Assembly: GCA_919902665.1 (NCBI GenBank)
Contig: CAKKRK010000038.1
Location: forward strand, 1-64,000
Reading direction: 5' to 3'
Source of the DNA: Nitrospiraceae bacterium
GTDB taxonomy: Bacteria > Nitrospirota > Nitrospiria > Nitrospirales > Nitrospiraceae
Length of the DNA: 64,000 nucleotides
Positions 17,758-57,882 of this stretch are shown piece by piece. The translations under genes were made by a program, and so were the position numbers. Every line of letters starts with the position of its first letter. Position 1 is the stretch's first letter. The notes beneath the pieces were generated by a model. It was not told where the DNA came from, made no database searches, and saw nothing but the letters and a program-made list of their open reading frames with translations.

Positions 17758-17991
17758 CTATGGCTGATTCTGCGCCGACGATCTGTAGGTGTAGTAGAGG
17801 ATGATACCGGCGAAGATTGAGACGAGAATTCCAAATCCCATCTGTGCACCGAAGCTCACTGGGCCGATGTAGATCTTGTAGAGCTGCAGCAGCACCACCG
17901 GCAGGCCCACTGCCAGGGCAAGCACGACCAAGTGCCGTCGCAAATAGATCGGCTCCCCTGGTTTTCGACCGTCCCGTCCCAATGCCGTCAC
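17758..17991 (-). CDS. Small two-helix membrane protein coupled to acs
   Basis: This 77-residue protein has two hydrophobic helices (about 20-40 and 48-67) and a basic N-terminus. Its ATG overlaps the acs stop as ATGA, so it is translated by coupling with acetyl-CoA synthetase. I do not recognise a family. Its position suggests a role with acetate uptake or Acs, but nothing in the sequence proves this. Confidence 0.7.
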   Translation of the reverse strand: MTALGRDGRKPGEPIYLRRHLVVLALAVGLPVVLLQLYKIYIGPVSFGAQMGFGILVSIFAGIILYYTYRSSAQNQP

Positions 17992-19877
17992 TCCTCGATG
18001 GTTGAAATATCCCCTGGGTCCTGCCCAAGCTCTTTCGCTTTCAGCACACGGCGCATGATTTTCCCGGAGCGAGTTTTTGGCAGCGACGACACAATGTCAA
18101 TTTCAGAGGGGACCCCGATCTTGCCCAATTCTTTGAGGACCTGATCCTTGATCGACTTGATCAACGCCGGACTTTCCTGTTCTCCCTGTTTCAAAATGAT
18201 AAAGGCCTTGATGGATTCACCGACCGTCTTATGCGGTTTGCCGATGACGGCAGCTTCCGCGACGGCCGGATGGCTGACCAATGCGCTTTCCACTTCGGCA
18301 GTGCCAAGCCGATTGCCCGCAACTTTAATCACATCATCCGCCCGCCCCATGAACCAGAGATACCCATCGGCGTCTTTGTGGCAGATGTCACCGGCCGTAT
18401 AGCAGTTGGGAATCGTATTCCAATAGGTCTTGTACCGCTCCGGGTCTTTGTAGATCGTGCGCATCATGGAGGGCCAGGGTTTCTTGATGACGGCAAAGCC
18501 GCCGGCGTTGGCGGGGAGACTGTTTCCCTCGCGATCGACAACATCGGCTTCAATGCCAAGAAAGGGGCGCGTGGCTGAGCCTGGTTTCAGCGGCACGGTG
18601 GGAAGCGGGGTAATCAAGATCGATCCCGTTTCCGTCTGCCACCAGGTGTCCATGATCGGTTTGTCCCCGCCCGTCACGCGGTGATACCATTCCCAGGCTT
18701 CTGGATTGATCGGTTCTCCAACACTCCCGAGAATGCGAAGCGTCGAGAGATCAAATTTCTTCGGCCAATCTTCGCCGTAGCGCATGAGCAGCCGGATCGC
18801 GGTCGGGGTCGTATAGAAAATCGAGACTCCATACCGTTCGATGAGATCCCACCAGCGTCCAGGATTCGGATAGTCCGGTTTCCCTTCCGCTGTCAGAATC
18901 GTAGCTCCATTGAGCAGCGGGCCATAGACGATATAGCTGTGGCCTGTGACCCATCCCGGATCTGCCACGCAGAAATATATGTCATCATCTTTCAGGTCGA
19001 ACACATACTTCGTCGTCGTATAGGTGCCGACCATATACCCACCATGGACATGGACGACCCCCTTGGGTTTCCCGGTTGTCCCGGATGTGTAGAGGATATA
19101 CAGCGGGGCTTCGGCATCCAGCTGTGCTGCTTCACAAATCGGTCGCTCAGATTCAATCCATTCTTTCCAGTCAATTTCCTTTGGGGCGGAAAGAGCTGGA
19201 CCCTGGACCTCGCGGCGTACGACCACGACATGGTCGATCGTCGGGCAGGTTTTTATGGCCTCGTCCACCACTGGTTTTAATTGGATGGTCTTGCCGCGGT
19301 CGAACCCGACATCTGCGGTGATGACCAGCTTGGCCTCTGCATCGTTGATACGGTTGGCGAGGGCAGGGGCGCTGAACCCTGAATAGACGACGCTGTGGAT
19401 CACGCCGATCCTGGCGCAGGCCAGCATGGCGATGACTTGTTCTGGGATCTTGGGCAAATAGATAGTGACTCGATCGCCTTGCTTGAGGCCAAGCTTTTTG
19501 AGGGCGTTGGCGCAGCGGTTCACTTGTCGGTACAGTTCGGCATAGGTGAAGATGCGTTCCTGATCGTTCTCGCCCACCCAGATCAGGGCTACTTTGTTCT
19601 TGCGCCAGGTCTTCATGTGGCGGTCCAGGCAGTTATAGGCGATGTTGCATCGTGCGCCGACAAACCATTTCGCCCATGGATAGTTCCACTCCAGGACCTT
19701 GCTCCAAGGAGAAAACCACTCCAGCTCCTTGGCCTCACGGTTCCAAAACGCTTCAGGATCGGCGATGGATTTCTTGTATTCGGTTTCGTAGTCTTTGATG
19801 TAGGCTGCGGCTATCGTCTTGGCGGTCGGCTGGTACGTCCGACTTTCCTTCAACAGGGTCTCAATCTTTTCGCTCAT
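17988..19877 (-). CDS. acs: Acetyl-CoA synthetase
   Basis: This 629-residue AMP-forming enzyme makes acetyl-CoA from acetate, ATP and CoA. Motifs include YTSGTTGKPKGVVHVHGG (phosphate-binding loop), WWQTETGS and YTAGDICHKDADGYLWFMGR in the adenylate domain. The C-terminal PKTRSGKIMRRVL contains the lysine that Pat-type acetyltransferases modify. The open frame extends to 19952. The ATG at 19877 (MSEKIETLLKES) is preferred because it has AGGAAGGAG upstream and because the likely promoter lies at 19924-19952. Confidence 0.96.
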   Translation of the reverse strand: MSEKIETLLKESRTYQPTAKTIAAAYIKDYETEYKKSIADPEAFWNREAKELEWFSPWSKVLEWNYPWAKWFVGARCNIAYNCLDRHMKTWRKNKVALIWVGENDQERIFTYAELYRQVNRCANALKKLGLKQGDRVTIYLPKIPEQVIAMLACARIGVIHSVVYSGFSAPALANRINDAEAKLVITADVGFDRGKTIQLKPVVDEAIKTCPTIDHVVVVRREVQGPALSAPKEIDWKEWIESERPICEAAQLDAEAPLYILYTSGTTGKPKGVVHVHGGYMVGTYTTTKYVFDLKDDDIYFCVADPGWVTGHSYIVYGPLLNGATILTAEGKPDYPNPGRWWDLIERYGVSIFYTTPTAIRLLMRYGEDWPKKFDLSTLRILGSVGEPINPEAWEWYHRVTGGDKPIMDTWWQTETGSILITPLPTVPLKPGSATRPFLGIEADVVDREGNSLPANAGGFAVIKKPWPSMMRTIYKDPERYKTYWNTIPNCYTAGDICHKDADGYLWFMGRADDVIKVAGNRLGTAEVESALVSHPAVAEAAVIGKPHKTVGESIKAFIILKQGEQESPALIKSIKDQVLKELGKIGVPSEIDIVSSLPKTRSGKIMRRVLKAKELGQDPGDISTIEE

Positions 19878-19923
19878 GGCGGTCGCGTCTCCTTCCTCAG
19901 CACGGTCCATCGTCGGCTGCGCA

Positions 19924-19952
19924 ATTATGGAGAAAGTTGGGGATGCCTGCAA
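19924..19952 (-). promoter_or_regulatory. Promoter of acs
   Basis: Read on the minus strand, TTGCAG and CATAAT are separated by exactly 17 bases. The predicted transcript begins about 40 bases before the 19877 start codon and would exclude the longer alternative start. Confidence 0.5.
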
Positions 19953-20036: not shown

Positions 20037-21434
20037 ATGACCAGCGAACGGCATTGTAGGAAGAAGAACCTGTTGCGTGGGCTCGTGAGACTGCTCGTAC
20101 GGGGCGTTCATGTGTTTGGACTGTTTTCAGTCGTCGCCCTGTCGACGGCTGAAGCTCAATCGGGCAAGCCGGAAGGCCTGTACTACAAGTCTTGGGCGAT
20201 CATTATTGGGATCGAAAACTATGTCTTGGCTCCTCCCATCCCGGGAGCGATCAGCGATGCCAAGAAGGTGGCCGAGGCGTTTCGACGGTTGGGGTTCGAC
20301 GAGGTGGTCGAGTTCTACGACAAGGATGCAAGCTCGCGACGTCTGCACCAGTTGTTCAACGACCTGTTGCCGAGAAAAGTTGGGCGCATGGATCGGCTCG
20401 TTGTGTTCTTTGCGGGCCATGCCGGGTCTATGCAGGATCCTGATGGGTACGATCGAGGGTATCTCGTGCCGTTCGATGCACCGGTCAACAACGCCACGAA
20501 GTCGATCACGGTTGAGCACTTAAAAGAATTTACGAGGCGGTCGGCTTCCAAACACACGCTCCTTATTCTCGATGCGCCGGTATTCGAATGGGAGACAACT
20601 AAGCCATCGGGACTGTCATTGGAAGGGCGTGTGGCTCCAGAATCGGATACGGATCGGCGTGCGGTCCAAGTCATCAGCGCGGCAGGTAAAGGAGAGACCG
20701 CTGTTCGCGCTGAGAAAAGTAGTCGTTTTGTGCAGACACTATTGATCGGACTGTCTGGTACTGCCGATCTGGACGGAAACGGCTGGCTCATGGCTTCTGA
20801 GTTGGGGACCTATTTGGTGCGACAGGTTGAGGAGGCCTCCAATGGTACGCAACGTCCATCCAGTCTCCGCATCGAGGGGGATGGAGACACGGCGTTGGTC
20901 GAAGGACGGAGGTCGGCGTTTATGCTTGGTGCCGGTCCTCGGACTCCTTCTGAGCGGCAACGGGAGGCGAAGGCTCACTACGAACGAGCCCTCGCGCTGT
21001 TGCAGGAAGGGAAATCAGGAGAAGAAGCCTTAGAACGACTGGATCGCGCGATCAGTTACGATCCGACCTACGGTAGTGCGTACGTGCTGAAGAGTTATGT
21101 TCGATTGGAAGTGGTGCCGAATCTCGACGAGGCCTTGGCGACCGGCCTTCTCGCGGTGAAATATGCGCCGAGGAACCCAGATTCGTTTTATACGCTGGGA
21201 TTGATTCACGAAAAACGCGGCGAGTTTGCGGAAGCTGAAGCGGCTCTCCGACAAGCTTTGCTTGTGAACAACACCTATCGGGATGTGTACTTCACATTGG
21301 GGGCACTGTATGCCGATCATCTCAATGATCAGGCTCAGTCGGTGGAGGCCTTTCGCCGGTATTTGGAACTCGGCGGCACCGATCCTCGCGCCCAAGCCAC
21401 TGTCAGTCAAGCCGATCGCACTCCCGTGCCTTAG
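20037..21434 (+). CDS. Exported caspase-like (C14) protein with TPR repeats; catalytic Cys missing
   Basis: This 465-residue protein has an N-terminal membrane/signal segment (about 22-42). A caspase-like p20 domain begins at SWAIIIGIENY. The His motif is intact (FFAGHAGS, His 128). The Cys motif that should read LLILDACxSG instead reads LLILDAPVF, with Pro 181 at the Cys position. An EF-hand-like DLDGNGWLMASEL follows near 240, then three or so TPR units (about 310-455). It is probably a non-proteolytic scaffold. The next gene, facing it, encodes another inactive caspase fold. Confidence 0.8.
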   Translation: MTSERHCRKKNLLRGLVRLLVRGVHVFGLFSVVALSTAEAQSGKPEGLYYKSWAIIIGIENYVLAPPIPGAISDAKKVAEAFRRLGFDEVVEFYDKDASSRRLHQLFNDLLPRKVGRMDRLVVFFAGHAGSMQDPDGYDRGYLVPFDAPVNNATKSITVEHLKEFTRRSASKHTLLILDAPVFEWETTKPSGLSLEGRVAPESDTDRRAVQVISAAGKGETAVRAEKSSRFVQTLLIGLSGTADLDGNGWLMASELGTYLVRQVEEASNGTQRPSSLRIEGDGDTALVEGRRSAFMLGAGPRTPSERQREAKAHYERALALLQEGKSGEEALERLDRAISYDPTYGSAYVLKSYVRLEVVPNLDEALATGLLAVKYAPRNPDSFYTLGLIHEKRGEFAEAEAALRQALLVNNTYRDVYFTLGALYADHLNDQAQSVEAFRRYLELGGTDPRAQATVSQADRTPVP

Positions 21435-21522
21435 CATGCTGCAAAAAGACTCGCGTACTCATACGGGCGGCGAGCAGCGCTGTTGAGCTACCTATCAGAC
21501 GAACCGTCTGGGATTGCGCGGG

Positions 21523-23376
21523 TTAGGGTGCTTCTGAAGAGGTGAGCGAAGGAAGTGTGGTCAGGACGAGTGAGGCGGCCGGGTCGTCTGGTTTGAGCGG
21601 GGGAAGCAGCATGGGCCGTTGCTCTTGATTGAATTGAGTCTTTGCCGCCCAGGAGACTTTTTGGCGTACGTAGCCAGTGAGTTCTCCGAATGTGACGGTC
21701 CCGTTGCGATTGGTGTCGGCCTCTCCTCGGAGCCCTTTCAAGAGGTAGTAGGTGAAGAGGCCATGGCGGTGCTGGTCATCTTCCAGTCCCTTCGTCATGT
21801 CTTCGCCCCCGATCAGTCCGATCGTATGTCCTCCGCCAAGTTCCCAGCGGGGTGATGGGGTTTTCCCCTTGGTATCGCCGCGCAGTCTGGAGACCATGCC
21901 GTCGAACAGGAAGAGGACCTGTTTGGCCTTGAGCCTGGCAAAGGCGGACTCAAGATCAGTGAGCGGGTAGAGTCGGGCCGAGTCCGTAGCGCTGCCATCA
22001 TGAAGAGCGAGCAAGACGTCGCCGGTGGGCGTCACTATTGCCTGTCCCGAGAAATAGACGATCACAACCGCATCTTTGGCCGCATGTTGTGGGAGCCAGC
22101 CGAACAATGTTTCGTGGAGATCGGCGCGGAGCGCCTTCTGGTTGTGCAATAGCCGAACGTTGGACGGGGGCACACCGCCGAGGGACTGAAAATAAGCGGC
22201 GACGGTCTCCGCATCCGTCGCGGCGTAGCGGCGGGGCGTGAGCTTGGGATCGCGATAGGCGCCGACCCCGATCGAGACGAGGTAGGTCTGAGGCTGGTGA
22301 AAGCCCGGCGCCGGTGCGGGAATTTGGTTGACGTCGTCCTGGCCGGTCCCGGCTGGCTGAATGGTCAACGAAAGGGTTTGGGACGGCGCCTTGGCTCCTC
22401 CCGATTCGACGACGGTGACATGGATCGCGGCCTGTTGTGCCTGATTGGTCGGGGGGAGGGTCGCGATGAACTCGAGCGATTTTGTTTGGCCCGGTTGGAG
22501 CGGCGGTATCGGCAGTGTCGTGGCGGGGAATTGCTCGATGACAACCGAGGTTCCGGTGAGCGAAGCAGAGGCGCTCTCAATCACCCTCGTTCCCGCATTG
22601 ATAATATCCACACGCACCCGCACATGCTCGCCGCCTTCAAGAATCAGATTACTGTTCTCGTCGAGCAGCATCGCCTTAAATCGAAGAGCCTGTGATGGTG
22701 ACGCCGGGGATGCGCCCACGCTTCCCACCGGTATCGGACTCAACTCGGTCGGGGAGGCGGTTTCCTGGCCGGTCACGGCTTGTCTGGCATTGAGAGAGAC
22801 ACGTGTCGCAAAATCGATGACGGTATCGCGGATGAAGGGGTCGATCAGATAGTTGCAGTTCTTGGAGAGCTGTTCAAGCCGCAGCCGTTCCTGACGGGCA
22901 ATTTTGATGTCCGTCTGACGGAGCAGCGCTCCCTTTCGATCGTGGATACGAGCGATGGCGTTGAGGTGTAAGACGGCAGGGGCCCGATCGTACAAGGCCT
23001 CCTTATTGAGGTCGAACGATGAATCGACGAGATCAACGTGAATGACATAATCAGGTGTGGCGGTATCGCTGGTGCCGTCGTCAATCGTCGTGGTGAACGT
23101 TCGCCGAAGGCCTTCCCGTACGGCCTCCTGAAGTCGATCGCCCAGCTGAATTTCCTGGAGCTGTCCGCAGGAATCGCTGTAGCGAATCGTCAGGTCTTTG
23201 ATCGATGGGGCAATGTCCAGCTTGGCGCTGGCGGGCAATGGCTCCCCCAGTGAAGGCAATTCCAGAGGTTTGACGCAAGCGGCGAGGAGCAACACGCAGA
23301 CCATCCCCGCCCCAGTGACAAGCCTGGTATGATTGAGTCGTTCTGTTGGAATCACCGCATGACCTATGGTGACCAT
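21523..23376 (-). CDS. Lipoprotein with inactive caspase-like domain
   Basis: This protein of about 617 residues carries a lipoprotein signal (VCVLLLAAC, cysteine near residue 34). A lipid-anchored N-terminal domain and a proline-rich linker follow. A DUF11-like beta domain with AMLLDENSNLILEGGEHVRV lies near 240-340. The C-terminal caspase fold begins YLVSIGVGAY. Both catalytic positions are changed: YFSGQA has Gln 445 where YFSGHG is expected, and FLFDGMVSR has Met 494 in place of Cys. An EF-hand-like loop DTNRNGTVTFGEL precedes the end. The start is uncertain: ATG 23376 was chosen and GTG 23397 is possible. Confidence 0.75.
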   Translation of the reverse strand: MVTIGHAVIPTERLNHTRLVTGAGMVCVLLLAACVKPLELPSLGEPLPASAKLDIAPSIKDLTIRYSDSCGQLQEIQLGDRLQEAVREGLRRTFTTTIDDGTSDTATPDYVIHVDLVDSSFDLNKEALYDRAPAVLHLNAIARIHDRKGALLRQTDIKIARQERLRLEQLSKNCNYLIDPFIRDTVIDFATRVSLNARQAVTGQETASPTELSPIPVGSVGASPASPSQALRFKAMLLDENSNLILEGGEHVRVRVDIINAGTRVIESASASLTGTSVVIEQFPATTLPIPPLQPGQTKSLEFIATLPPTNQAQQAAIHVTVVESGGAKAPSQTLSLTIQPAGTGQDDVNQIPAPAPGFHQPQTYLVSIGVGAYRDPKLTPRRYAATDAETVAAYFQSLGGVPPSNVRLLHNQKALRADLHETLFGWLPQHAAKDAVVIVYFSGQAIVTPTGDVLLALHDGSATDSARLYPLTDLESAFARLKAKQVLFLFDGMVSRLRGDTKGKTPSPRWELGGGHTIGLIGGEDMTKGLEDDQHRHGLFTYYLLKGLRGEADTNRNGTVTFGELTGYVRQKVSWAAKTQFNQEQRPMLLPPLKPDDPAASLVLTTLPSLTSSEAP

Positions 23377-23647: not shown

Positions 23648-25156
23648 ATGGTCACGTGGACTCAGCAAGCGACGAATATGCTTATCGGTGGTGGCTTGGC
23701 CCTGTGTGCTCTCGTCGGAAGTGGATGCGTCTCACCTGTCTCAGCTGCTGGAGTCCCTCCAGCATGGGCTCAAGGCTTTTCGGAGATCGTGAAAAAGACC
23801 ACTCCGGCTGTCGTCAATATCGCGGTGACGGGTGGAGGAGAGGGAAGCCGGAGACGCGGAGGAATGCCGCCTAATCCGTTCGGCACGCCTCCTCCTGGCG
23901 ATGAGCCGGGAGGTGGAGAATTGCCAACCCCCCCGCCAGGCCCGCATGGTCCACCCGCGCCGCATGGCCGCCCGGATCAGAGTGCGGGATCCGGAGTTGT
24001 CTTTGATGCCAACGGGTTCATCGTGACCAATAATCACGTCGTTGAAGGAGCCACGCAGATTACGGTGACCTTGAACGATCGGCGCGAGTTTTCGGCAAAG
24101 GTGGTGGGCACCGATCCAAAGACGGATTTGGCGGTCATCAAGATTGAAGCGAAGGATCTGCCGTCGCTGAAATGGGCGGAGTATGAAAAGCTACAAGTCG
24201 GTGATCTGGTGCTGGCGGTGGGAAGTCCGTTTGGTCTGAGCTCGACCGTCACGCTCGGCATCATCAGCGCCCTGGGGCGTGGGAATGTGGGCATTGCGGA
24301 CTATGAAGATTTCATTCAGACCGACGCGGCCATCAATCCTGGGAATTCGGGTGGAGCGCTCGTCAACATGAATGGAGATCTGATCGGTATCAACACCGCG
24401 ATTTTCTCGCGCACCGGCGGGTCGGAAGGGATCGGGTTTGCGATTCCCAGCAGTATCGCGCTCGATATCGTGGACAGTCTGCAGAAAACAGGCAAGGTCG
24501 TACGAGGATGGATGGGTGTTGCGATCCAAGAAATTACGCCGGCCTTGGCGAAATCGTTCAAACTCCCGGAGCAGCGGAAGGGGGTATTGATCAGCGATGT
24601 CAATGAGAATGGCCCATCCCATGCCGCGGGAGTCAAGCGAGGCGATGTCGTCGTGGCCTTTAATGGCAAGGAAGTGCAGACTGTCAGCCAGCTGCGCAAT
24701 CTTGTCGCGCGAACGATGGTTGGAAAAGATGCACAGGTCAAGGTGTTGCGCGAAGGCAAGGAGCAGCTGATCGCGGTGAAGGTTGCCGAACGCCCTTCAG
24801 ATGAACTGCTGGCCAAGAAAGAGTCGGCGCCGCCGAAGGACGCGGGCGAAACGATGAAGCTTCCGGACAATGTACTGGCGTCGTTGCGTGTCCAAACGCT
24901 GGATAATACGCTGATGAGTCAGTTGAACATTTCCGCGAAGACGGCCGGAGTCGTTATCACCTCCGTGGAACCGGGTGGGCCGGGAGAGGCAGCCGGACTC
25001 CAGCGTGGTGATGTGATTCAAGAAGTCAATCATGAGCCCATCAAGACGTTGGGCGATTATCAAAAGATCGCAGAAAAGATTAAGAAAGACGAACTTGCCG
25101 TGCTGTTGGTCAATCGGCAAGGGAACAGCCTGTTTGTGGCGGTGAATCCGAAGTAA
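23648..25156 (+). CDS. Periplasmic serine protease, Do/HtrA family
   Basis: This 502-residue protein is an exported quality-control protease/chaperone. A lipoprotein-like or cleavable signal lies at about 10-35 ([13 protein letters not shown]). An extended Gly/Pro-rich linker (about 60-115) is unusual for the family. The trypsin-like domain has the full triad: His 130 (TNNHVV), Asp 160 (KTDLAVIK) and Ser 234 (GNSGGALV). Two PDZ domains follow, at about 285-375 and 400-495. The gene heads the block with tatC and molybdoenzyme-maturation genes. Confidence 0.93.
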
Positions 25157-25254
25157 GACGCACAGGGGTATTTGTTGATCTGTCGATCTGGCGATTGCCA
25201 GAGGCTCGATCATCAGATTGTTGGATCGACAGATTCAAAAATGTACGAGGCTCT

Positions 25255-26196
25255 GTGCTGAATAAGCTGAGCCAGTGGCTGCAAGATTCGGTCTTCAAGC
25301 CGCTGGAAGACAAGAAGATGCCGGTCATGGAACACCTCGTGGAGTTCCAGGTCCGGCTCACCCGTGCGGTGATCGCCCTGGCGGTCGTGTTCATGGGGAC
25401 GTTTTTTTATGCCGATGCGCTGGTCAAATGGCTGCGGGTTCCGCTCCAGAACATGTTCGTGCCGAGCCAATTAACCTGGGAGCCGACCGATTTGCCAACG
25501 GTGCCGTTTGTCTTTCTTGCGCCGGCGGAGGCACTCTGGCAGAACGTCAAGGTCGCGGGGCTGTTTGCTATTGTGCTTGCCATGCCTTATCTCTTGTATG
25601 AGATCTGGCGGTTCGTCGTTCCGGGACTGCATGCTCAGGAGCGACGGTTTGTTGGGCCGTTTGTCTGTGTGAGCGCGTTGGCATTCTACGCCGGGGTCGG
25701 GTTCTCGTTTTTTTTCATTCTTCCCTTCGCCTTGAATTTTTTGATTTCGTACGGAGTGAACGCGGGATTCGTGCCGCAAATCTCGATCGCCCAGTATGTC
25801 GGGTTTGCCCTGTGGTTCTTGACGGTCTTTGGGCTGATCTTTGAAGTGCCACTGGCCATCACCCTCATGGCCAAGTTGGGCTGGGTCGATGCACCGTTCC
25901 TGATTCAGTATTGGAAGTGGGCGTTGTTAGGATCGTTTATCATCGCCGCGATTCTGACGCCTACGCCGGACCCGTTTAATCAGATGTTGATGGCTGGACC
26001 CATGTTTCTTCTTTACTGGGTCGGCATCTTCGGCGCGAAGGTGTTTGGCAAGAAGACATCTGCTGAAAATCAACAGGCAGGTGTTCCGACAGTCGCCATG
26101 GCTGGGGTAGGGGCCGGGGGAACTGCTTCCGGCATGTCGATGCCAAAATCTTCGGGTGATGACTATGTCGGCGTTCCCGGAGGGCGACACCACTAA
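25255..26196 (+). CDS. tatC: Sec-independent (Tat) translocase subunit TatC
   Basis: This 313-residue integral membrane protein is the twin-arginine receptor of the Tat export system. Six hydrophobic helices are visible. The N-terminal KKMPVMEHLVEFQVRL and the loop VPGLHAQERRFVGPFV match TatC landmarks, as does ILTPTPDPFNQM. The GTG at 25255, after ACGAGG, was chosen; an upstream in-frame start (25195) has poor context. The C-terminus carries a Gly/Ala/Ser-rich tail beyond the usual end. No tatA/B gene is nearby. Adjacent Fe-S and molybdopterin genes suggest a role with exported cofactor enzymes. Confidence 0.93.
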   Translation: MLNKLSQWLQDSVFKPLEDKKMPVMEHLVEFQVRLTRAVIALAVVFMGTFFYADALVKWLRVPLQNMFVPSQLTWEPTDLPTVPFVFLAPAEALWQNVKVAGLFAIVLAMPYLLYEIWRFVVPGLHAQERRFVGPFVCVSALAFYAGVGFSFFFILPFALNFLISYGVNAGFVPQISIAQYVGFALWFLTVFGLIFEVPLAITLMAKLGWVDAPFLIQYWKWALLGSFIIAAILTPTPDPFNQMLMAGPMFLLYWVGIFGAKVFGKKTSAENQQAGVPTVAMAGVGAGGTASGMSMPKSSGDDYVGVPGGRHH

Positions 26197-49080: not shown

Positions 49081-52000
49081 ATGGATACCATGTTTTCACC
49101 GGTAGGCAAGCGCGCTGAACTGGAAGAGCCAATTCGCGCCGAGCTCTTCGGCGCCGAACGGCTCGAACAGCATGCGGCAAGTCTCGCAGTGGCACAGGTT
49201 GTCACCGATGACGCACGCGTGGGCCGATTACTCACGCCACGAGTCCTTGAGAATGGACGAGTCTTGGTGGCGTCGTATCAGGCGATCGCTCGTACGATTC
49301 GCGATGAGCAATCAATTACTCCAGCGGCCGAATGGTTCGTCGACAATTTCCATATCATTGACGAACAACTTCGCGAAATCATCGACGACTTGCCTCCCGG
49401 GTACTACAGGCAATTACCCAAACTTGCATCAGGCCACTTAAAGCATTACCCACGGGTCTTTGGCGTAGCCTGGGCATTCGTGGCCCACACCGACAGTCGT
49501 TTCGATCCTGACATGCTCCGGCGCTTTGTGTCGGCGTATCAATGCGTGCAACCCCTGACAATCGGTGAGTTGTGGGCTGTCGCGATCTCGCTGCGTGTCG
49601 TCTTGGTGGAGAACCTTCGCCGGTTGATCGAGCGGATCGTTCAGAGCCGCGCGGACAGGCTGGAAGCCGACGAACTGGCCGACAGCTTGTTGGGGACCGG
49701 GGGGGGAGTCACCGAACCTCTAGCCACGATTCTTCGCCATGTTGAGCGCCGACCATTAGCTGCGGCATTTGCTGTACAGCTGGTTCAGCGACTCCGTGAC
49801 CTGGATCCCAAGGTGCGTCCCGTTCTGCAATGGCTTGATGAGCGGTTGATTGGGCAAGGCACAACGGCCGACGACATGGTGCATGCGGAGCATCAGCAAC
49901 AGGCGGCCACGAGCGTCACGGTTCGCAACATCATTACAAGCATGCGGCTGACGTCCGCGTTTGATTGGGCGGACTTTTTTGAGAGCGTCAGTTCAGTCGA
50001 CAATATGCTGCGGGGCGATTCCCGCTATGCCGAGATGGATTTTACCACGCGGGATGCCTATCGCCATGCGATCGAGGATCTTTCCCGCGGTACGGGGTTG
50101 TCGGAACTCGACGTGACCGCACGGGTTGTGGAGCGTACCAGACTGGCTGGGATTGAGATGCATGCGAGTGAACAGTCGGAGTTGGATCGGCACATGGACC
50201 CCGGCTATTACCTGATCTCCCAGGGCCGCCAGGCATTTGAACGCGAACTCGGTTACAGGGTGTCTTGGAAAGGCTTGATCCTGCGCTGGTGCGTCCAGGT
50301 TCCGGCTCTGGGCTACCTGGGATCGCTCGCCGTGTTGACCGCCATAGTCCTGGCCTTCCCACTATGGCATGCGAGCGCCACCGGGGTGACCATTGCAGGC
50401 CTGGCCTGTCTCGGTCTCATTGCGCTCGTGCCGGCTTCAGATCTCGCTATGGCGCTCATCAATCGGATGGTGATGGCCATCCTCGGGCCGCGGTCATTGC
50501 CCCGCATGGCATTGAGAAACGGCATTTCTAAAGAGTTACGTACAATCGTGGTAGTCCCCATGTTACTGACGACCCAGCAGGGCATCGATGAGCTGGTTGA
50601 GCGATTGGAAGTGCACTATCTAGCGAATGCGGATGATGACCTGCGCTTCGCTCTGCTCTCCGACTGGAGAGATGCCTCAAAGGAAAGTATTCCAGGTGAC
50701 GTTGAACTGCTGGATAGCGCGGTGGAGGGGATTGCGCAGCTGAACAAGCGGTACGGTCCCGCGGCGGGGAGCGGTCCGCGGTTTGTGCTATTGCATCGCC
50801 GGCGTGTCTGGAACGAATCCGAACAGGTGTGGATGGGATGGGAACGGAAACGAGGCAAACTGCATGAGTTGAATCAATGGTTGCGCGGCTCGATGAGCAC
50901 GACGTTCATGTCTGTTGGCGGGCAGCTCCCCGAGGCGATTCCGTCGGTCCGGTTCGTCATCACCTTGGATGCGGATACACGGTTGCCGCGTGGAGCCGCG
51001 CACCGGCTCATCGGCACCATGGCTCACCCTCTGAACCGGCCACGGTTCGACCGTTTCGCTGGGTACGTTGTAGAAGGGTATGGGGTCGTGCAACCGCGGA
51101 TTACCCCGTCGCTCCCAGGCAGCGGCGAGGGCTCGTATTTTCAACAGACATTTTCCGGACCCAGCGGGATCGACCCCTACGCGTCGGCGGTGTCTGATGT
51201 GTATCAGGACCTATTCCGGGAAGGGTCCTACACGGGCAAAGGCATATACGATATCGACGCGTTCGAAGCGGCGCTGGCGGGCAAGGTGCCGGACAATGCG
51301 ATGCTCAGTCACGATCTTTTTGAAGGATTGTTCGCGCGCGCGGCGCTGGCGACCGACATCGAGCTGTTCGAAGCGTTTCCTGCCCACTATGAGGCGGCGG
51401 CAGCCAGGCAGCATCGATGGGCACGCGGCGATTGGCAGCTGTTGCCCTGGTTATTCGGGCGAGGGCATACCGGGTCTGAGCCGCATCGTGCGGTGGTGAT
51501 TCCCGCCATTGGTCGTTGGAAGATTCTCGACAATCTCCGCCGGACCCTGTCGGCGCCTGCGGCGTTTCTGACATTGATCGTCGGATGGTTGCTGCCAGAA
51601 CCATCTGGCTGGGTCTGGTCCGGATTCATTCTGAGCACGATCGCAATTCCCTCGCTGTTGTCCTTCGTGCTGGGGCTCTACCCGCGCCGATCCAAGATTG
51701 CCTTGCGCACCCATTTTCGTGGAGCAGGCACCGACCTAAAATTGGCCGCGAGGCAGATCGCGTTGACCGTCACGTTCCTCGTGCATCAAGCATGGGTCAT
51801 GACGGATGCCATTCTTCGTACTCTCGGTCGGCTCGTCTTCACGCATACACGGATGTTGGAGTGGGTGACTGCGGCTCAAGCCGAGGATGCCTATACGTGC
51901 AATTGGACGGGGATGTATCGGCGCATGGCAGGCGGTGTGGCGCTCACCGTCGCGGCAGCTGGTGGGGTGGCCGTGTTTGGGGGCTATGAGTCCTGGGCCG

Positions 52001-55000
52001 CCGCCGCTCCGTTCGTGCTGCTCTGGATGTCGGCTCCTGCCGTGGCCCGGTGGGTCAGTCTGCCGCCTCGACTCCTGGGGGCCGAGCCGATTTCTCCGGC
52101 CGATGCGCGAGTGCTCCGATTAATTGCGCGCCGAACCTGGAGGTTTTTCGAAGCGTTCGTGTCTCCCGAGGACCATGCGCTCCCGCCTGATAACTTTCAA
52201 GAAGATCCGAAGCCGGTCGTCGCCCATCGCACGTCGCCGACCAACATCGGACTCTATCTGCTCTCAACCCTGGTTGCTCGTGACCTCGGATGGCTGGGGA
52301 CCCTTGACGCGGCCGAACGACTGGAAGCCACACTCGCGACCATGAATCGTCTCGAGCTGTTTCGTGGGCATTTCTACAATTGGTACGACACACGCACCCT
52401 TCATCCGTTGGATCCCAAGTATGTGTCCACCGTCGATAGTGGAAACCTCGCGGGCCATTTGCTGGTCGTGGGGAACGGATGCCGCGAGTTGATTCAGCGC
52501 TCTGCCATCGACGGCGATGTGTTTGCCGGGATCGATGATGCCATCCAACTGTTACGCGATGCGCTGGAGGAGATTCCAGATGAGCGACAGACCCACACGG
52601 TAACTAGGAAGCAGCTGAGCCACGCTGTCGATGCGTTGGCCATGGCGCTCTTCTCGAGACCGGTCGATCCCGCCGGCTGGACCGTCAGGTTCGGCCGGCT
52701 CACGGCCTTGTCTCAGACGGTCGCGGATATGGCGCAGGCACTGGGACAGGAGCGCGGGGATGAGCACGATGGGGAATTGCGTACGTGGGCCGATGCGGTT
52801 CGAGCCTGCGTGGAAAGCCATCTTCGGGACGCGGAATTGTTGCTTCCCTGGGTGCGCTTCAGTGAGAAAGATCGGGCGGCTCTGTTCGACCATCCGTCGG
52901 GGCCATCGCTGGAGTGGGCGGCTATTGCGCCGTTCTTCCAACCCGTTCCCACGCTGGCGGCTGCCCCTGAGCGGTTTGCGGATGCGCTTCGTGCGCTCGA
53001 TCACTTGCGTGACCAGTTGCTCAGTCGCCCCTCACAGGATCGGGCCACCTTGGCAAGAATCGCCCTACTGGCTGATGCCATACGGCAAGCGGATGGAGGC
53101 ATCACAGGTTTGGTCCGCCGTCTGGCGACGATCGCGCAGCATGCGGAGCACATGGTTCACGCCATGGATTTTACCTTTCTTTTCGATCCGACCCGCAAGT
53201 TGTTGTCCATCGGCTATCGCATGCCGGAGAACAGCCTGGATCCCAGCTGCTACGACTTGCTGGCGTCGGAGGCCAGGTTGGCGAGCTTTATCGCTATCGC
53301 CAAAGGCGATGTGCCGTCATCGCATTGGTTTCACCTGGGCCGCGCCCTGACACCTGTGGGAGACGGTTCGGCGCTCGTGTCCTGGTCGGGCTCTATTTTT
53401 GAATACCTCATGCCGGCGTTGGTGATGCGTTTCCCGGCAGGCAGCTTGCTGTCCCGGACGTATGAGTTGATTGTCCGTCGGCAGATTCAATATGGGAGAG
53501 AGCGAGGCGTGCCCTGGGGTGTTTCAGAGTCGGCCTATAATGCCCGTGATCTCGACTTGACGTACCAGTATTCCAGTTTTGGCGTGCCGGGCCTGGGGCT
53601 CAAGCGAGGCCTCAGTGAGGATGTGGTCGTCGCTCCCTATGCCACTGCCCTCGCGGCGATGATCAGTCCTATGGAAGCCATGCAAGGCTTCGGGCGCCTC
53701 GCCGAGGCCGGAGGGAGAGGAACCTACGGATTCTATGAAGCGCTGGATTACACGGGGACACGGGTGCCGGAAGGAAAAGATGTGGCCATTGTGCGGGCCT
53801 ATATGTCGCATCATCAGGGCATGTCGTTGGTCTCGATCGCAAATGTTTTGAACAACGGACTGATGCGGAACCGTTTTCATGCCGAGCCGATCGTCCGAGC
53901 GACGGAACTGCTGCTCCAAGAACGGACTCCGCGTGACGTGCCGGTGACACGCCCACGCGCGGAAGAAGTCGCGGCCGCAGCGCAAGTCCGCGACCTCATC
54001 CCGCCGGTCGTACGGCGATTTACCGCGCCTCATGAGGCCACTCCGCGGACGCATCTGCTGTCCAATGGGCAGTATGCGGTCATGCTGACCACGGCAGGCT
54101 CGGGGTACAGCCGGTGGCGAGATATCGCGGTGACGCGCTGGCGCGAGGATGCGACGCGGGACTGCTGGGGGTCTTATCTGTTTCTGCGTGACATGCAGAC
54201 GGGGTCTGTCTGGTCGGCCGGGTATCAACCCAGTGGCGTCGAGGCCGACGACTATGAGGTGTCTTTTACCGAAGAACGAGCCGAAATTACCAGACGGGAC
54301 GGAGACTGGAACACGACGCTTGAGCTTGTGGTGTCATCCGAGGACGACGCCGAAGTGCGACGCATCTCGGTCACCAACATGGGCGCGCACGCATGCGATC
54401 TACAAGTGACCTCCTATGCCGAGCTGTCCCTGGCTCCACAGGCCGCCGATGTGGCCCATCCGGCTTTTGCGAATCTGTTCGTGCAAACCGAATTCATACC
54501 GGAGGTCGGTGCGCTGCTCGCGACGCGTCGCAGGCGGTCGAATGAGGAAGCGACGGTGTGGGTGGCCCAGGTGGTTGTGGTCGAAGGAGAGACCGTGGGC
54601 GCCCTGCAATATGAAACGGATCGCGCGCGGTTTCTTGGACGAGGGCACCATGTCCGCACGGCGGTCGCGATGATCGATGGGCGGACACTCTCGAATACTG
54701 TCGGATCCGTGCTTGACCCGGTGATGAGCTTGCGCCGTACGGTGCGGGTGCCCGCAGGTGGGACTGTACGCCTGGTGTTTTCAACCATTGTCGGCGCTAC
54801 CCGCGATGGCGTGTTGGAATTGGCCAACAAGTACAGCGACCCGAGAGTCTTTGAGCGTGCCCTGTCGCTGGCCTGGACCCAAGCGCGAGTGCAACTACAT
54901 CACCTTGGTATCGAGACAGATGAGGCCCAACTGTTCCAGCAACTAGCCAATGCCGTGCTGTATTCCGATGTCTCGCTGCGACCATCCTCTGAGGTACTGA

Positions 55001-57882
55001 GCCAGGGTGTGGTGGACCGTGCGGCGCTGTGGGCGCATGGTATCTCAGGCGATCTGCCTATCGTGTTGGCCTGCATCGACAACGCGGATGATGTCGACAT
55101 CGTCCGTCAATTGCTCCGAGCGCATGAGTACTGGCGGATGAGGCAATTATCGACCGATGTGATCATCCTGAATGAGAAGGCCTCGTCGTATGAGCAGGGG
55201 TTGCAGGGTTCGTTGGAAGGGCTTGTGCGGGGGAGCAGGTTGCGGCTCTGCCCGGATGTTGGCGGGGCACGAGGCAGTATCTATCTCCTGCGAACTGACC
55301 TGCTCTCCGCGCAGGATCGAATGCTGCTGCAGCAGGTCGCTCGGGTCGTTCTGCTCGGCCGGCGCGGGACGTTGGCGGAGCAGATCACTCGCTTACCGCG
55401 CAGGAGCCGTGTGACCTCGACGAACTCGTCTTTCCCACGCCTGGGCAAACGCTTGGATGTGCCGGTGCCTGAACGTGAACTCGAATTCTTTAATGGCTTG
55501 GGCGGCTTCGCAGACGATGGACGCGAATATGTCACGATTCTCGGCGAAGGTATTCGGACGCCACGACCCTGGGTTAACGTCATCGCGAACCCGTCGTTCG
55601 GGTTCCTCGTGTCGGAGTCCGGCTCCGGGTTTACCTGGTCATTGAACAGCCACGAGAACCAGCTGACGCCCTGGTCGAACGATCCGGTATCTGATCCGTC
55701 GGGTGAGGTGCTCTATATCCGTGATGACGACTCCGGAGAGGTCTGGGGTCCGACGGCGTTGCCGATTCGCGACGATCCGGCACCCTATGTCGCCTGTCAT
55801 GGGCAGGGCTATAGCCGCTTCCATCATGGTTCCCACGGCGTCTTGGCAGAATTGCTGCAATTTGTACCGCCTGAAGATCCGATCAAGATCTCTCGATTGA
55901 CGCTACAGAATATGTCTGGCCGATCGAGACGCCTTTCTGTGACGGCCTATGTTGAGTGGGTGCTCGGGAGTTCCCGTAGTGAGTCCGCACCTTACATTAT
56001 CACAGAGATCGATCCGGGGACCGGGGCGCTTTTTGCGCGCAGTATGTTAGGCGGCGAATTTGCCGGACGCATCGCCTTTACCGATCTTGCCGGAACACAC
56101 ACATCGTGGACTGGTGATCGCAAGGAATTTCTTGGCCGTAATGGAACTTTTGAGCAACCTCTGGCGTTGGAAACGGGAGATGCATTATCCGGAAGGGTCG
56201 GAGCGGGTCTCGATCCTTGTGGTGCCCTTCAACTGTCGATTGAGTTGGCAGCAGGCGAACGCGCCGAAATTGTCTGGTTTCTAGGTCAGACAGCGGACAG
56301 AGAGCAGGCTCGTCTCCTGCTCAATCGCTATCGTGGGGCGGACGTGAATGTGCTCCTGCGTGAGGTCACCAGCCGATGGGATGACCTCTTGAGCGTCGTA
56401 CAAGTTCATACGCCTGAACGTGCGATGGACATCTTCTTGAATCGATGGGTGTTGTATCAAACGCTGGTGTGCCGTGTTTGGGCACGTGCAGCCTTCTATC
56501 AGTTGAGCGGGGCCTATGGGTTTCGTGATCAACTACAAGATGGCATGGCCCTGAGTGTGGCGGCACCCGACATCACGCGCGAGCATTTGCTGCGGGCGGC
56601 CGCGCGGCAGTTTGTCGAGGGCGACGTTCAGCATTGGTGGCATCCTCCGTCCGGACGCGGTGTGCGGACCCGCATTTCTGACGATCTGCTCTGGTTGCCG
56701 TACGCGGTGATCCAATTTCTTGAAGTGACCGGCGATATGACCGTGCTGGATGAAATGGTGCCCTTCCTAGAAGGCCCGGCATTGGCCGAGGGGCAACATG
56801 AATCCTATTTTGAGCCACGTGTGTCCCAGACGAGGGCCACCCTCTTTGAACATTGTGCGCGTGCGTTGGATCGGAGCCTTGTCGTCGGCAGTCACGGTCT
56901 TCCACTCATGGGTACTGGAGATTGGAATGACGGGATGAGCCGTGTGGGCCAGCAGGGCAAAGGGGAGAGCGTCTGGCTCGGGTGGTTTTTGCATACGGTG
57001 CTCTGGGAGTTCGCCAAGGTGGCGGCTCAGCGTGGGGAGCGTGCGCGTGCCGAAACGTGGCGGCTGCATGTGAGTGCGTTGAAGGCCGCAATCGAGCGGG
57101 ACGGGTGGGACGGGGAGTGGTACCGTCGCGCGTACTTCGATGACGGAACGCCACTCGGTTCCGCTGCAGATCCGGAATGCCGCATCGATTCCATTGCTCA
57201 GTCCTGGGGAGTGATCAGCGGCGCGGCAGATCCGGACCGCGGCGCACGCGCCATGGCTGCGGTGGAACGGCATCTTGTGGACCGGCGAGATGGACTGATC
57301 CGTCTGTTGACACCACCCTTTGATCAGATATCGAGGGATCCCGGCTATATCAAAGGCTATGTCCCCGGCGTCCGAGAAAACGGTGGTCAATATACCCACG
57401 CGGCGGTCTGGACCGTGCTGGCCTTCGCGGCATTGGGTGAAGGTGACAAGGCCGGCGAGTTGTTCCGTCTGTTGAACCCTGTTCATCGTGTCTCCTCGCG
57501 AGCCAGCGTCCAGCGCTATAAAGTCGAGCCTTACGTCGTCGCCGGCGACGTGTATGGCGAGCCCCCACATGTCGGACGTGGGGGATGGACCTGGTACAGC
57601 GGCGCAGCAGGTTGGCTCTACCGGGCTGGAATCGAATGGATGCTCGGTTTCCGCTTGCATGGTGCCACGCTCTCCGTCGATCCTTGTGTTCCACGCCATT
57701 GGCAGGGGTACTCGATTCGTTTTCGGTATCATTCGGCGGTCTATGACATCACGGTGGAAAACCCGCACCATGTATGCCGCGGCGTGACGCTGGTAGAGCT
57801 TGATGGGAAACAAATAATCGGCCGCGACGATATTCCTCTCATTAAGGAAGGCGAGTACCACATCCGTGTCGTGCTCGGATGA
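49081..57882 (+). CDS. Cyclic beta-1,2-glucan synthase (NdvB/ChvB type)
   Basis: This 2933-residue membrane enzyme polymerises, cyclises and trims beta-1,2-glucan from UDP-glucose. Helices lie near 405-465 and 815-870. The GT84 glycosyltransferase domain contains DADTRLPRG (about 630), then HDLFEGLF and the RQHRWARGDWQ (QxxRW-type) motif (about 776). A glycoamylase-like domain (about 1480-1600) has GVSESAYNARDLDLTYQYSS. The C-terminal GH94-type phosphorylase half has GTGDWNDGM near 2611. All canonical domains are present and the length matches ChvB/NdvB (about 2800-2900). The ATG has GGAAGG upstream. Secreted glucans act in osmoprotection and host or surface interaction. Confidence 0.94.
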   Translation: MDTMFSPVGKRAELEEPIRAELFGAERLEQHAASLAVAQVVTDDARVGRLLTPRVLENGRVLVASYQAIARTIRDEQSITPAAEWFVDNFHIIDEQLREIIDDLPPGYYRQLPKLASGHLKHYPRVFGVAWAFVAHTDSRFDPDMLRRFVSAYQCVQPLTIGELWAVAISLRVVLVENLRRLIERIVQSRADRLEADELADSLLGTGGGVTEPLATILRHVERRPLAAAFAVQLVQRLRDLDPKVRPVLQWLDERLIGQGTTADDMVHAEHQQQAATSVTVRNIITSMRLTSAFDWADFFESVSSVDNMLRGDSRYAEMDFTTRDAYRHAIEDLSRGTGLSELDVTARVVERTRLAGIEMHASEQSELDRHMDPGYYLISQGRQAFERELGYRVSWKGLILRWCVQVPALGYLGSLAVLTAIVLAFPLWHASATGVTIAGLACLGLIALVPASDLAMALINRMVMAILGPRSLPRMALRNGISKELRTIVVVPMLLTTQQGIDELVERLEVHYLANADDDLRFALLSDWRDASKESIPGDVELLDSAVEGIAQLNKRYGPAAGSGPRFVLLHRRRVWNESEQVWMGWERKRGKLHELNQWLRGSMSTTFMSVGGQLPEAIPSVRFVITLDADTRLPRGAAHRLIGTMAHPLNRPRFDRFAGYVVEGYGVVQPRITPSLPGSGEGSYFQQTFSGPSGIDPYASAVSDVYQDLFREGSYTGKGIYDIDAFEAALAGKVPDNAMLSHDLFEGLFARAALATDIELFEAFPAHYEAAAARQHRWARGDWQLLPWLFGRGHTGSEPHRAVVIPAIGRWKILDNLRRTLSAPAAFLTLIVGWLLPEPSGWVWSGFILSTIAIPSLLSFVLGLYPRRSKIALRTHFRGAGTDLKLAARQIALTVTFLVHQAWVMTDAILRTLGRLVFTHTRMLEWVTAAQAEDAYTCNWTGMYRRMAGGVALTVAAAGGVAVFGGYESWAAAAPFVLLWMSAPAVARWVSLPPRLLGAEPISPADARVLRLIARRTWRFFEAFVSPEDHALPPDNFQEDPKPVVAHRTSPTNIGLYLLSTLVARDLGWLGTLDAAERLEATLATMNRLELFRGHFYNWYDTRTLHPLDPKYVSTVDSGNLAGHLLVVGNGCRELIQRSAIDGDVFAGIDDAIQLLRDALEEIPDERQTHTVTRKQLSHAVDALAMALFSRPVDPAGWTVRFGRLTALSQTVADMAQALGQERGDEHDGELRTWADAVRACVESHLRDAELLLPWVRFSEKDRAALFDHPSGPSLEWAAIAPFFQPVPTLAAAPERFADALRALDHLRDQLLSRPSQDRATLARIALLADAIRQADGGITGLVRRLATIAQHAEHMVHAMDFTFLFDPTRKLLSIGYRMPENSLDPSCYDLLASEARLASFIAIAKGDVPSSHWFHLGRALTPVGDGSALVSWSGSIFEYLMPALVMRFPAGSLLSRTYELIVRRQIQYGRERGVPWGVSESAYNARDLDLTYQYSSFGVPGLGLKRGLSEDVVVAPYATALAAMISPMEAMQGFGRLAEAGGRGTYGFYEALDYTGTRVPEGKDVAIVRAYMSHHQGMSLVSIANVLNNGLMRNRFHAEPIVRATELLLQERTPRDVPVTRPRAEEVAAAAQVRDLIPPVVRRFTAPHEATPRTHLLSNGQYAVMLTTAGSGYSRWRDIAVTRWREDATRDCWGSYLFLRDMQTGSVWSAGYQPSGVEADDYEVSFTEERAEITRRDGDWNTTLELVVSSEDDAEVRRISVTNMGAHACDLQVTSYAELSLAPQAADVAHPAFANLFVQTEFIPEVGALLATRRRRSNEEATVWVAQVVVVEGETVGALQYETDRARFLGRGHHVRTAVAMIDGRTLSNTVGSVLDPVMSLRRTVRVPAGGTVRLVFSTIVGATRDGVLELANKYSDPRVFERALSLAWTQARVQLHHLGIETDEAQLFQQLANAVLYSDVSLRPSSEVLSQGVVDRAALWAHGISGDLPIVLACIDNADDVDIVRQLLRAHEYWRMRQLSTDVIILNEKASSYEQGLQGSLEGLVRGSRLRLCPDVGGARGSIYLLRTDLLSAQDRMLLQQVARVVLLGRRGTLAEQITRLPRRSRVTSTNSSFPRLGKRLDVPVPERELEFFNGLGGFADDGREYVTILGEGIRTPRPWVNVIANPSFGFLVSESGSGFTWSLNSHENQLTPWSNDPVSDPSGEVLYIRDDDSGEVWGPTALPIRDDPAPYVACHGQGYSRFHHGSHGVLAELLQFVPPEDPIKISRLTLQNMSGRSRRLSVTAYVEWVLGSSRSESAPYIITEIDPGTGALFARSMLGGEFAGRIAFTDLAGTHTSWTGDRKEFLGRNGTFEQPLALETGDALSGRVGAGLDPCGALQLSIELAAGERAEIVWFLGQTADREQARLLLNRYRGADVNVLLREVTSRWDDLLSVVQVHTPERAMDIFLNRWVLYQTLVCRVWARAAFYQLSGAYGFRDQLQDGMALSVAAPDITREHLLRAAARQFVEGDVQHWWHPPSGRGVRTRISDDLLWLPYAVIQFLEVTGDMTVLDEMVPFLEGPALAEGQHESYFEPRVSQTRATLFEHCARALDRSLVVGSHGLPLMGTGDWNDGMSRVGQQGKGESVWLGWFLHTVLWEFAKVAAQRGERARAETWRLHVSALKAAIERDGWDGEWYRRAYFDDGTPLGSAADPECRIDSIAQSWGVISGAADPDRGARAMAAVERHLVDRRDGLIRLLTPPFDQISRDPGYIKGYVPGVRENGGQYTHAAVWTVLAFAALGEGDKAGELFRLLNPVHRVSSRASVQRYKVEPYVVAGDVYGEPPHVGRGGWTWYSGAAGWLYRAGIEWMLGFRLHGATLSVDPCVPRHWQGYSIRFRYHSAVYDITVENPHHVCRGVTLVELDGKQIIGRDDIPLIKEGEYHIRVVLG

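Follow-up and report, generated by a model that had tools for sequence, protein, structure and literature searches.

We examined two facing genes, P0001 and P0002, in a stretch of 64,000 nucleotides (the window) of contig CAKKRK010000038.1 from a Nitrospiraceae bacterium. They encode a tetratricopeptide repeat (TPR)-linked protein and a lipoprotein. Both have caspase (C14) domains without the catalytic His-Cys dyad, and they belong to two families that lost catalysis independently in our tree. Both genes are under purifying selection, and they lie side by side here because of a chromosome rearrangement. We propose with moderate confidence that they are envelope proteins most likely acting as non-catalytic binding scaffolds, which Ca2+ would stabilize and might possibly switch. 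A first-pass annotation of the sequence had instead regarded the two genes as an adjacent, convergent pair forming a calcium-responsive scaffold or decoy system. The window is part of a Nitrospira assembly (G000, contig C38) of 3.56 Mb and 99.86% completeness. The nearest named relatives found were the Nitrospira metagenome-assembled genomes RSF12 and CG24B.

The caspase fold expected in both proteins was recovered by profile search and by modelling. Against Pfam Peptidase_C14 (PF00656; curated cut-off 21.4), P0001 scored 61.7 bits (E 1.1e-16) and P0002 37.5 bits (E 2.7e-9). AlphaFold2 models were built for P0002 from an ortholog alignment and for P0001 from three P0001 sequences together with P0002-family domains. 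Residues 48-300 of P0001 matched MALT1 (7ak1; Z 21.1, root-mean-square deviation (rmsd) 2.5 over 193 residues), and the C-terminal part was modelled as a TPR solenoid. Residues 359-617 of P0002 matched MALT1 (3uo8; Z 17.1, rmsd 2.6 over 186 residues); their match to 3bij, a C14 protein of Geobacter, had Z 15.7 and rmsd 3.1 over 182 residues. The residues that the first-pass annotation had placed at the dyad positions of the two proteins, with their coordinates, were correct (Table 1).

We looked for an alternative Cys-His dyad in both proteins and found none. The sole Cys of P0001 is C7, in the signal region, and those of P0002 (C27, C34, C70, and C174) all lie outside the caspase domain. Neither caspase domain contains a Cys; therefore, a shifted dyad is excluded, in line with the earlier view of both proteins as catalytically altered. 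A stray Cys in the caspase domain occurred in one of 32 P0001 orthologs and in none of 36 P0002 orthologs. Judged by their sequences, P0001 and P0002 cannot be caspase-type cysteine proteases. As in pseudo-orthocaspases, the dyad is substituted in both; PF00656 was the only caspase-type domain matched, with no p10-specific model applied.

Dyad loss is shared by both families. The catalytic Cys was absent from all 49 distinct members of the P0001 family and from all 83 distinct full-length proteins sampled for the lipoprotein family (median pairwise identity, 29%). The only protein with the N-terminal and C14 domains that was left out of the 83 is a copy in genome G019 cut at the rearrangement described below. 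In the lipoproteins, the Cys position is held by M, S, K, T, P, L, N, I, A, and others, and the His position carries His in only 12 of the 83. P0001 might still be enzymatic by another chemistry, in which His128 acts with another residue or a ligand. His128 is kept in every member though P, A, G, or N fills the Cys position, and the surroundings of the site are strongly conserved (GHxG, plus V/I-x-x-W-E/D past the Cys position). However, no nucleophile candidate replaces the Cys, whose position accepts Pro, Ala, Gly, and Asn alike, and in P0002 the His position is unconserved. We consider residual catalysis improbable.

A 12-residue EF-hand-like loop was present in all members of both families (49/49 and 83/83). 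In the P0001 family, D244...N248-G249-W250...E255 was found in all 49 proteins; D246 was replaced by N only, and one N248D was seen. In the lipoproteins, D554 and E565 were invariant and the pattern D-x-[DN]-x-[DNS]...E held in all 83. At locus L111, the loop reads DEDHDGAVTLRE. The first-pass annotation had rightly noticed the loop in both proteins. It had placed the loop at the end of the caspase domain; in the models, the loop sits inside the domain between two helices (residues 221-242 and 253-267 in P0001; 540-552 and 563-579 in P0002). The second loop of P0002, at residues 239-250, was absent from that annotation. The Pfam EF-hand model matched with only E 0.089, below its cut-off, despite the 12-residue DxDxDG...E loop between helices.

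Between close relatives, the ratio of nonsynonymous to synonymous substitution rates (dN/dS) of the pseudo-caspase domain was 0.08-0.22. Together with the loop invariance, this ratio indicates that selection maintains the dead domains and that the loop is among their strictest parts. Such constraint makes a calcium-binding scaffold plausible, and this part of the first-pass proposal stands. It is hardly credible that the proteins are decaying protease relics without present function. Decayed extra copies of P0002 do occur in several genomes, but the dead domains evolve at dN/dS of about 0.1-0.2, the genes are retained across a whole family or order, and motifs stay invariant at the pairwise identity given above.

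Across the fetched loci, we compared 207 C14 domains. A loop of this pattern lay C-terminal to the Cys position in 17 of 64 dyad-intact domains versus 134 of 143 domains without the dyad, counts that run over related sequences and are not independent events. The loop could be only structural, with both proteins acting as constitutive binding modules in which the metal steadies the C-terminal helices and no calcium response takes place. This is a real possibility, although we would not call it probable. The 17 active relatives with the loop fit such a role. At the Ca2+ levels of the periplasm, EF-like sites are usually saturated, and EF-like loops are common in secreted proteins. On the other side, active relatives can do without the loop, whereas no member of either dead family lacks it, and a second conserved loop is found in the lipoproteins. 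This conservation goes beyond any clear need for stability, yet it is no proof of a switch.

Table 1 Features of the P0001-P0002 region (positions in the window).
Feature	Position	Strand	Remarks
acs (acetyl-CoA synthetase)	17991..19952	-	divergent neighbor of P0001 across Nitrospiraceae; ancestral P0001 context
P0001 gene	20037..21434	+	465 amino acids; N-terminal signal-like stretch ~1-41, pseudo-caspase ~48-300, TPR ~305-460
P0001 His128 codon, catalytic-His position	20418..20420	+	kept in 49/49 family members
P0001 Pro181 codon, catalytic-Cys position	20577..20579	+	family has P, A, G, or N; never C
P0001 EF-hand-like loop DLDGNGWLMASE, residues 244-255	20766..20801	+	positions 1, 6, 12 invariant in 49/49
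Gap between convergent P0001 and P0002	21435..21522	.	junction region of lineage-specific rearrangement; elsewhere LPP20-LpoB genes follow P0001
P0002 gene	21523..23376	-	617 amino acids; lipobox LAAC with Cys34, N-terminal domain ~40-205, CARDB-like ~231-341, pseudo-caspase ~362-600
P0002 EF-hand-like loop DTNRNGTVTFGE, residues 554-565	21682..21717	-	ligand positions 1, 3, 5, 12 canonical in 83/83
P0002 Met494 codon, catalytic-Cys position	21895..21897	-	conservation rank 222nd of 231 columns; never C in 83
P0002 Gln445 codon, catalytic-His position	22042..22044	-	family: Q, R, H, N, L, S, M, or V
P0002 second EF-hand-like loop DENSNLILEGGE, residues 239-250	22627..22662	-	head of CARDB domain; canonical in 79/83
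HtrA-type protease gene	23648..25153	+	trypsin-like plus two PDZ domains; divergent neighbor of P0002 in the genus
tatC	25195..26193	+	part of ancestral P0002 context

Phylogenetic analysis grouped the P0001 clade (100/100) with active C14s in the vicinity of the FGE type. For the lipoprotein clade (98/97), the sister was an active C14. Some deep branches were long and the exact sisters are unsure; the two pseudo-caspase clades were separate. On this sequence evidence, the two families lost catalysis independently. A profile of active C14s detected four C14 domains in the window genome, none of which has the dyad: P0001, P0002, and one each on contigs C39 and C145. The search gave no active C14, although a very divergent or unassembled one could escape it. 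Because none was detected in a genome of this completeness, P0001 and P0002 are unlikely here to serve a resident caspase as decoy or dimer partner, and the decoy part of the first-pass proposal was dropped. Several other genomes of the genus also seem to have dead C14s only; active-looking ones are present in some, e.g., G004, G012, and G094.

The lipoprotein family has three members in the window genome, on C38, C39, and C145. The pseudo-caspase lipoprotein gene on C39 (34835-36724; L085/L115) adjoins a prenyltransferase-like gene and genes that by eye resemble respiratory-complex parts, and relatives of that on C145 (35952-37769; L086/L116) occur in family f3. Some close relatives of the window genome have metacaspase-type genes that look active (SGHGSN, DCCHSG), at G094:C8:13544-14341 (L280) and on G019:C1 (L142); the window genome has none.

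P0002 is a predicted bacterial lipoprotein, with a lipobox and an invariant Cys after a signal-like stretch, and P0001 has a signal-like N-terminus. These features agree with the earlier prediction that both are exported. The lipobox Cys34 and C174 were conserved in all 83 lipoproteins and C70 in 81; a simple pattern recognized a lipobox-like N-terminus in 82. The nearly invariant pair C70/C174 belongs to the N-terminal domain (22762-23265 of the window, minus strand). This domain had no significant match among Pfam, NCBIfam, and PDB profiles, which is not evidence of a new fold. The family shares this domain, the CARDB-like domain, and the C14 domain, with several paralogs per genome, and its full-length members were found in families f1, f2, and f3 of the Nitrospirales. 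In other classes of the phylum, the hits sampled had either CARDB plus C14 or C14 alone, and the H-C dyad was intact in almost all of them. Two loci, L186 (1522-2625) and L187 (1483-2604) of genomes G284 and G055, encode the same N-terminal plus CARDB lipoprotein without the caspase domain.

P0001 orthologs were present in nearly all searched genomes of the genus. All 15 genomes searched from 11 further genera of the Nitrospiraceae also had one, at 50-64% identity; the search of the order's families f2, f3, and f4 gave none. P0001 is a core Nitrospiraceae gene. Some P0001-family open reading frames (ORFs) without TPR (L022-L032 and other loci of the genus) encode about 303-327 amino acids and stop after the pseudo-caspase domain, the dead domain being kept alone. 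The PADLOC 'caspase' model matched P0001 (E 1.8e-8) through its C14 part only and did not match P0002; no search was made for defence partners. An anti-phage defence role for these proteins seems unlikely.

We compared the gene order around P0001 and P0002 in related genomes. At other Nitrospira loci and most other Nitrospiraceae loci, P0001 is preceded by divergent acs, and the genes after it are LPP20, LpoB, a 495-amino-acid lipoprotein, and a second LPP20, in full or in part. In the genus, P0002 lies by htrA-tatC-mrp-moeA, and the genes downstream of it are of the cytochrome c, RodZ, and TPR lipoprotein types; this neighborhood points to the envelope and no further. Of 13 further loci, mostly from other genera, 11 had htrA within a few genes of the P0002-type gene. 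A direct htrA-P0002 partnership was rejected as the ancestral state, as several genes intervene in other genera, and we regard htrA as context, not as a demonstrated partner.

RSF12 and CG24B share the adjacency of the two genes seen in the window. The closed genome G024 has P0001 at 3.497 Mb and P0002 at 0.357 Mb. In G019, P0002 is broken at about residue 497; its last part adjoins P0001 and is joined to a second, decayed copy. G094 has the reciprocal junction, in which LPP20a-LpoB is followed by a remnant of a P0002 copy and then by the genes normally 3' of P0002. Decayed second copies of P0002, about 57-66% identical, were seen beside P0002 or at scars (L065 7887-9227; L095 8067-9838; L089 9218-10576; L276 8006-8806; L278 7413-8255). 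The second copy is likely the repeat that mediated the rearrangement, and the event probably involved P0002-like repeats, joining P0001 and P0002 tail to tail.

Synteny thus contradicts a conserved convergent pair, as the adjacency is limited to the clade of the window and lies across a recent rearrangement scar. Since it results from a chromosome rearrangement, P0001 and P0002 are not a paired system. The first-pass annotation suggested checking whether the genes co-occur in relatives; both are present throughout the genus, but in separate blocks outside the clade of the window, and lipoproteins occur without P0001 in f2 and f3. We therefore find it very improbable that the convergent genes are partners in one calcium-responsive scaffold or decoy system. 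Their arrangement in the three genomes above, the EF-like loop in both products, and their common presence in the genus would suit a partnership. Against it stand the distant loci of G024 and the two different conserved blocks of other species, the reciprocal junction in G094, the independent losses, the lipoproteins of f2 and f3, and the genome without a detected active C14 to decoy.

For the scaffold interpretation that we prefer, the following mechanism is proposed. P0001 would be an exported TPR pseudo-caspase of the LPP20-LpoB lipoprotein neighborhood, and P0002 an outer-membrane lipoprotein whose dead caspase domain follows the N-terminal and CARDB domains. Bound at the EF-hand-like helix-loop-helix, Ca2+ would stabilize, and possibly switch, the caspase fold. 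The TPR and pseudo-caspase faces of P0001 may hold lipoprotein activators of peptidoglycan synthases, as NlpI does for E. coli peptidoglycan enzymes, and the pseudo-caspase of P0002 may be displayed as a binding module tethered to the outer membrane. P0001 probably works with LpoB-type lipoproteins; the strongest lead for P0001 is its association with LpoB and LPP20 genes, which is family-wide. LpoB activates a peptidoglycan synthase (PMC11394524), and NlpI, an outer-membrane TPR lipoprotein, scaffolds peptidoglycan enzymes (PMC7049810). A broader and rather doubtful extension is that Nitrospirales twice re-purposed caspases into Ca2+-sensing non-catalytic envelope adaptors, which would adjust both the synthesis of peptidoglycan and proteolysis in the envelope to calcium or divalent-cation conditions.

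Besides the relatedness of the sequences in the loop counts, several points weigh against the scaffold interpretation. Model confidence was moderate, with a mean predicted local distance difference test score (pLDDT) of 68 for P0001 and 62 for P0002 and below 50 in the C-terminal part of P0002, and detail is uncertain. Some active C14s also have EF-like loops, and the role of the loop may thus be structural alone. The invariance of His128 in the P0001 family could mean a retained pocket or other chemistry. TPR is missing in 12 of the 49 P0001-family proteins, which form a Nitrospira subclade, so it is not always needed. The clade of the window has P0001 away from the LpoB cluster, and the operon link is thus not obligatory.

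Bacterial pseudo-caspases have been counted and hardly explained. Here, a whole order has dead caspases as core envelope genes, and some genomes have dead ones only; the hosts are Nitrospira, nitrifiers of environmental importance. The scaffold interpretation gives a testable function for bacterial caspase relatives unrelated to cell death. If the broader extension above is true, the target of selection shifted away from the active site after protease loss and became the EF-hand-type loops, and the window genome would hold an outer-membrane and periplasmic set of four pseudo-caspases with no active caspase. Elsewhere in the window, a 2933-amino-acid ORF (49081-57879, plus strand) has GH94 and glucoamylase-like domains and is probably of the cyclic beta-glucan synthase type. 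A promoter/terminator scan gave results at chance level, and our literature search on EF-hands in orthocaspases turned up only an archaeal mention.

For SyOC, the pseudo-orthocaspase of Synechocystis, we know of no lipoprotein or LpoB context. SyOC reportedly has a role in attenuating oxidative stress (PMC7889975). P0001 and P0002 are similar to SyOC in that a dead caspase homolog is retained in the genome, whereas SyOC is cyanobacterial and its substitutions are different (PMC7889975). The likeness to NlpI is a functional analogy only, a TPR scaffold beside Lpo-type envelope activators; NlpI has no caspase domain, and no homology to P0001 is claimed (PMC7049810).

Pseudo-orthocaspases are established, accounting for 858 of 9,994 orthocaspases (PMC6426788). 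P0001 and P0002 resemble them in having a C14 p20-type domain with a substituted His-Cys dyad, presumed to be non-catalytic, and accessory TPR domains are also found in one class, the FS type of Rhizobiales (PMC6426788). That paper deals mainly with YS, YN, YA, FS, QC, and HA types of Cyanobacteria and Alphaproteobacteria, and Nitrospira is absent from its main text. It does not describe the families studied here, an HP/HA/HG/HN-TPR family and a CARDB lipoprotein family with Q/R/H/N plus M/S/K/T/P, both with invariant EF-like loops. Dyad loss in Nitrospirae was also flagged earlier: a 2012 survey reported intact dyads in just 57% of caspase homologs of this group (PMC3501461). The available part of that survey gives the same loss at low sampling, without families, neighborhoods, loop conservation, or architecture (PMC3501461). 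As far as the literature shows, the new points are the two families, their neighborhoods, and an EF-like loop that stayed invariant while the active site drifted.

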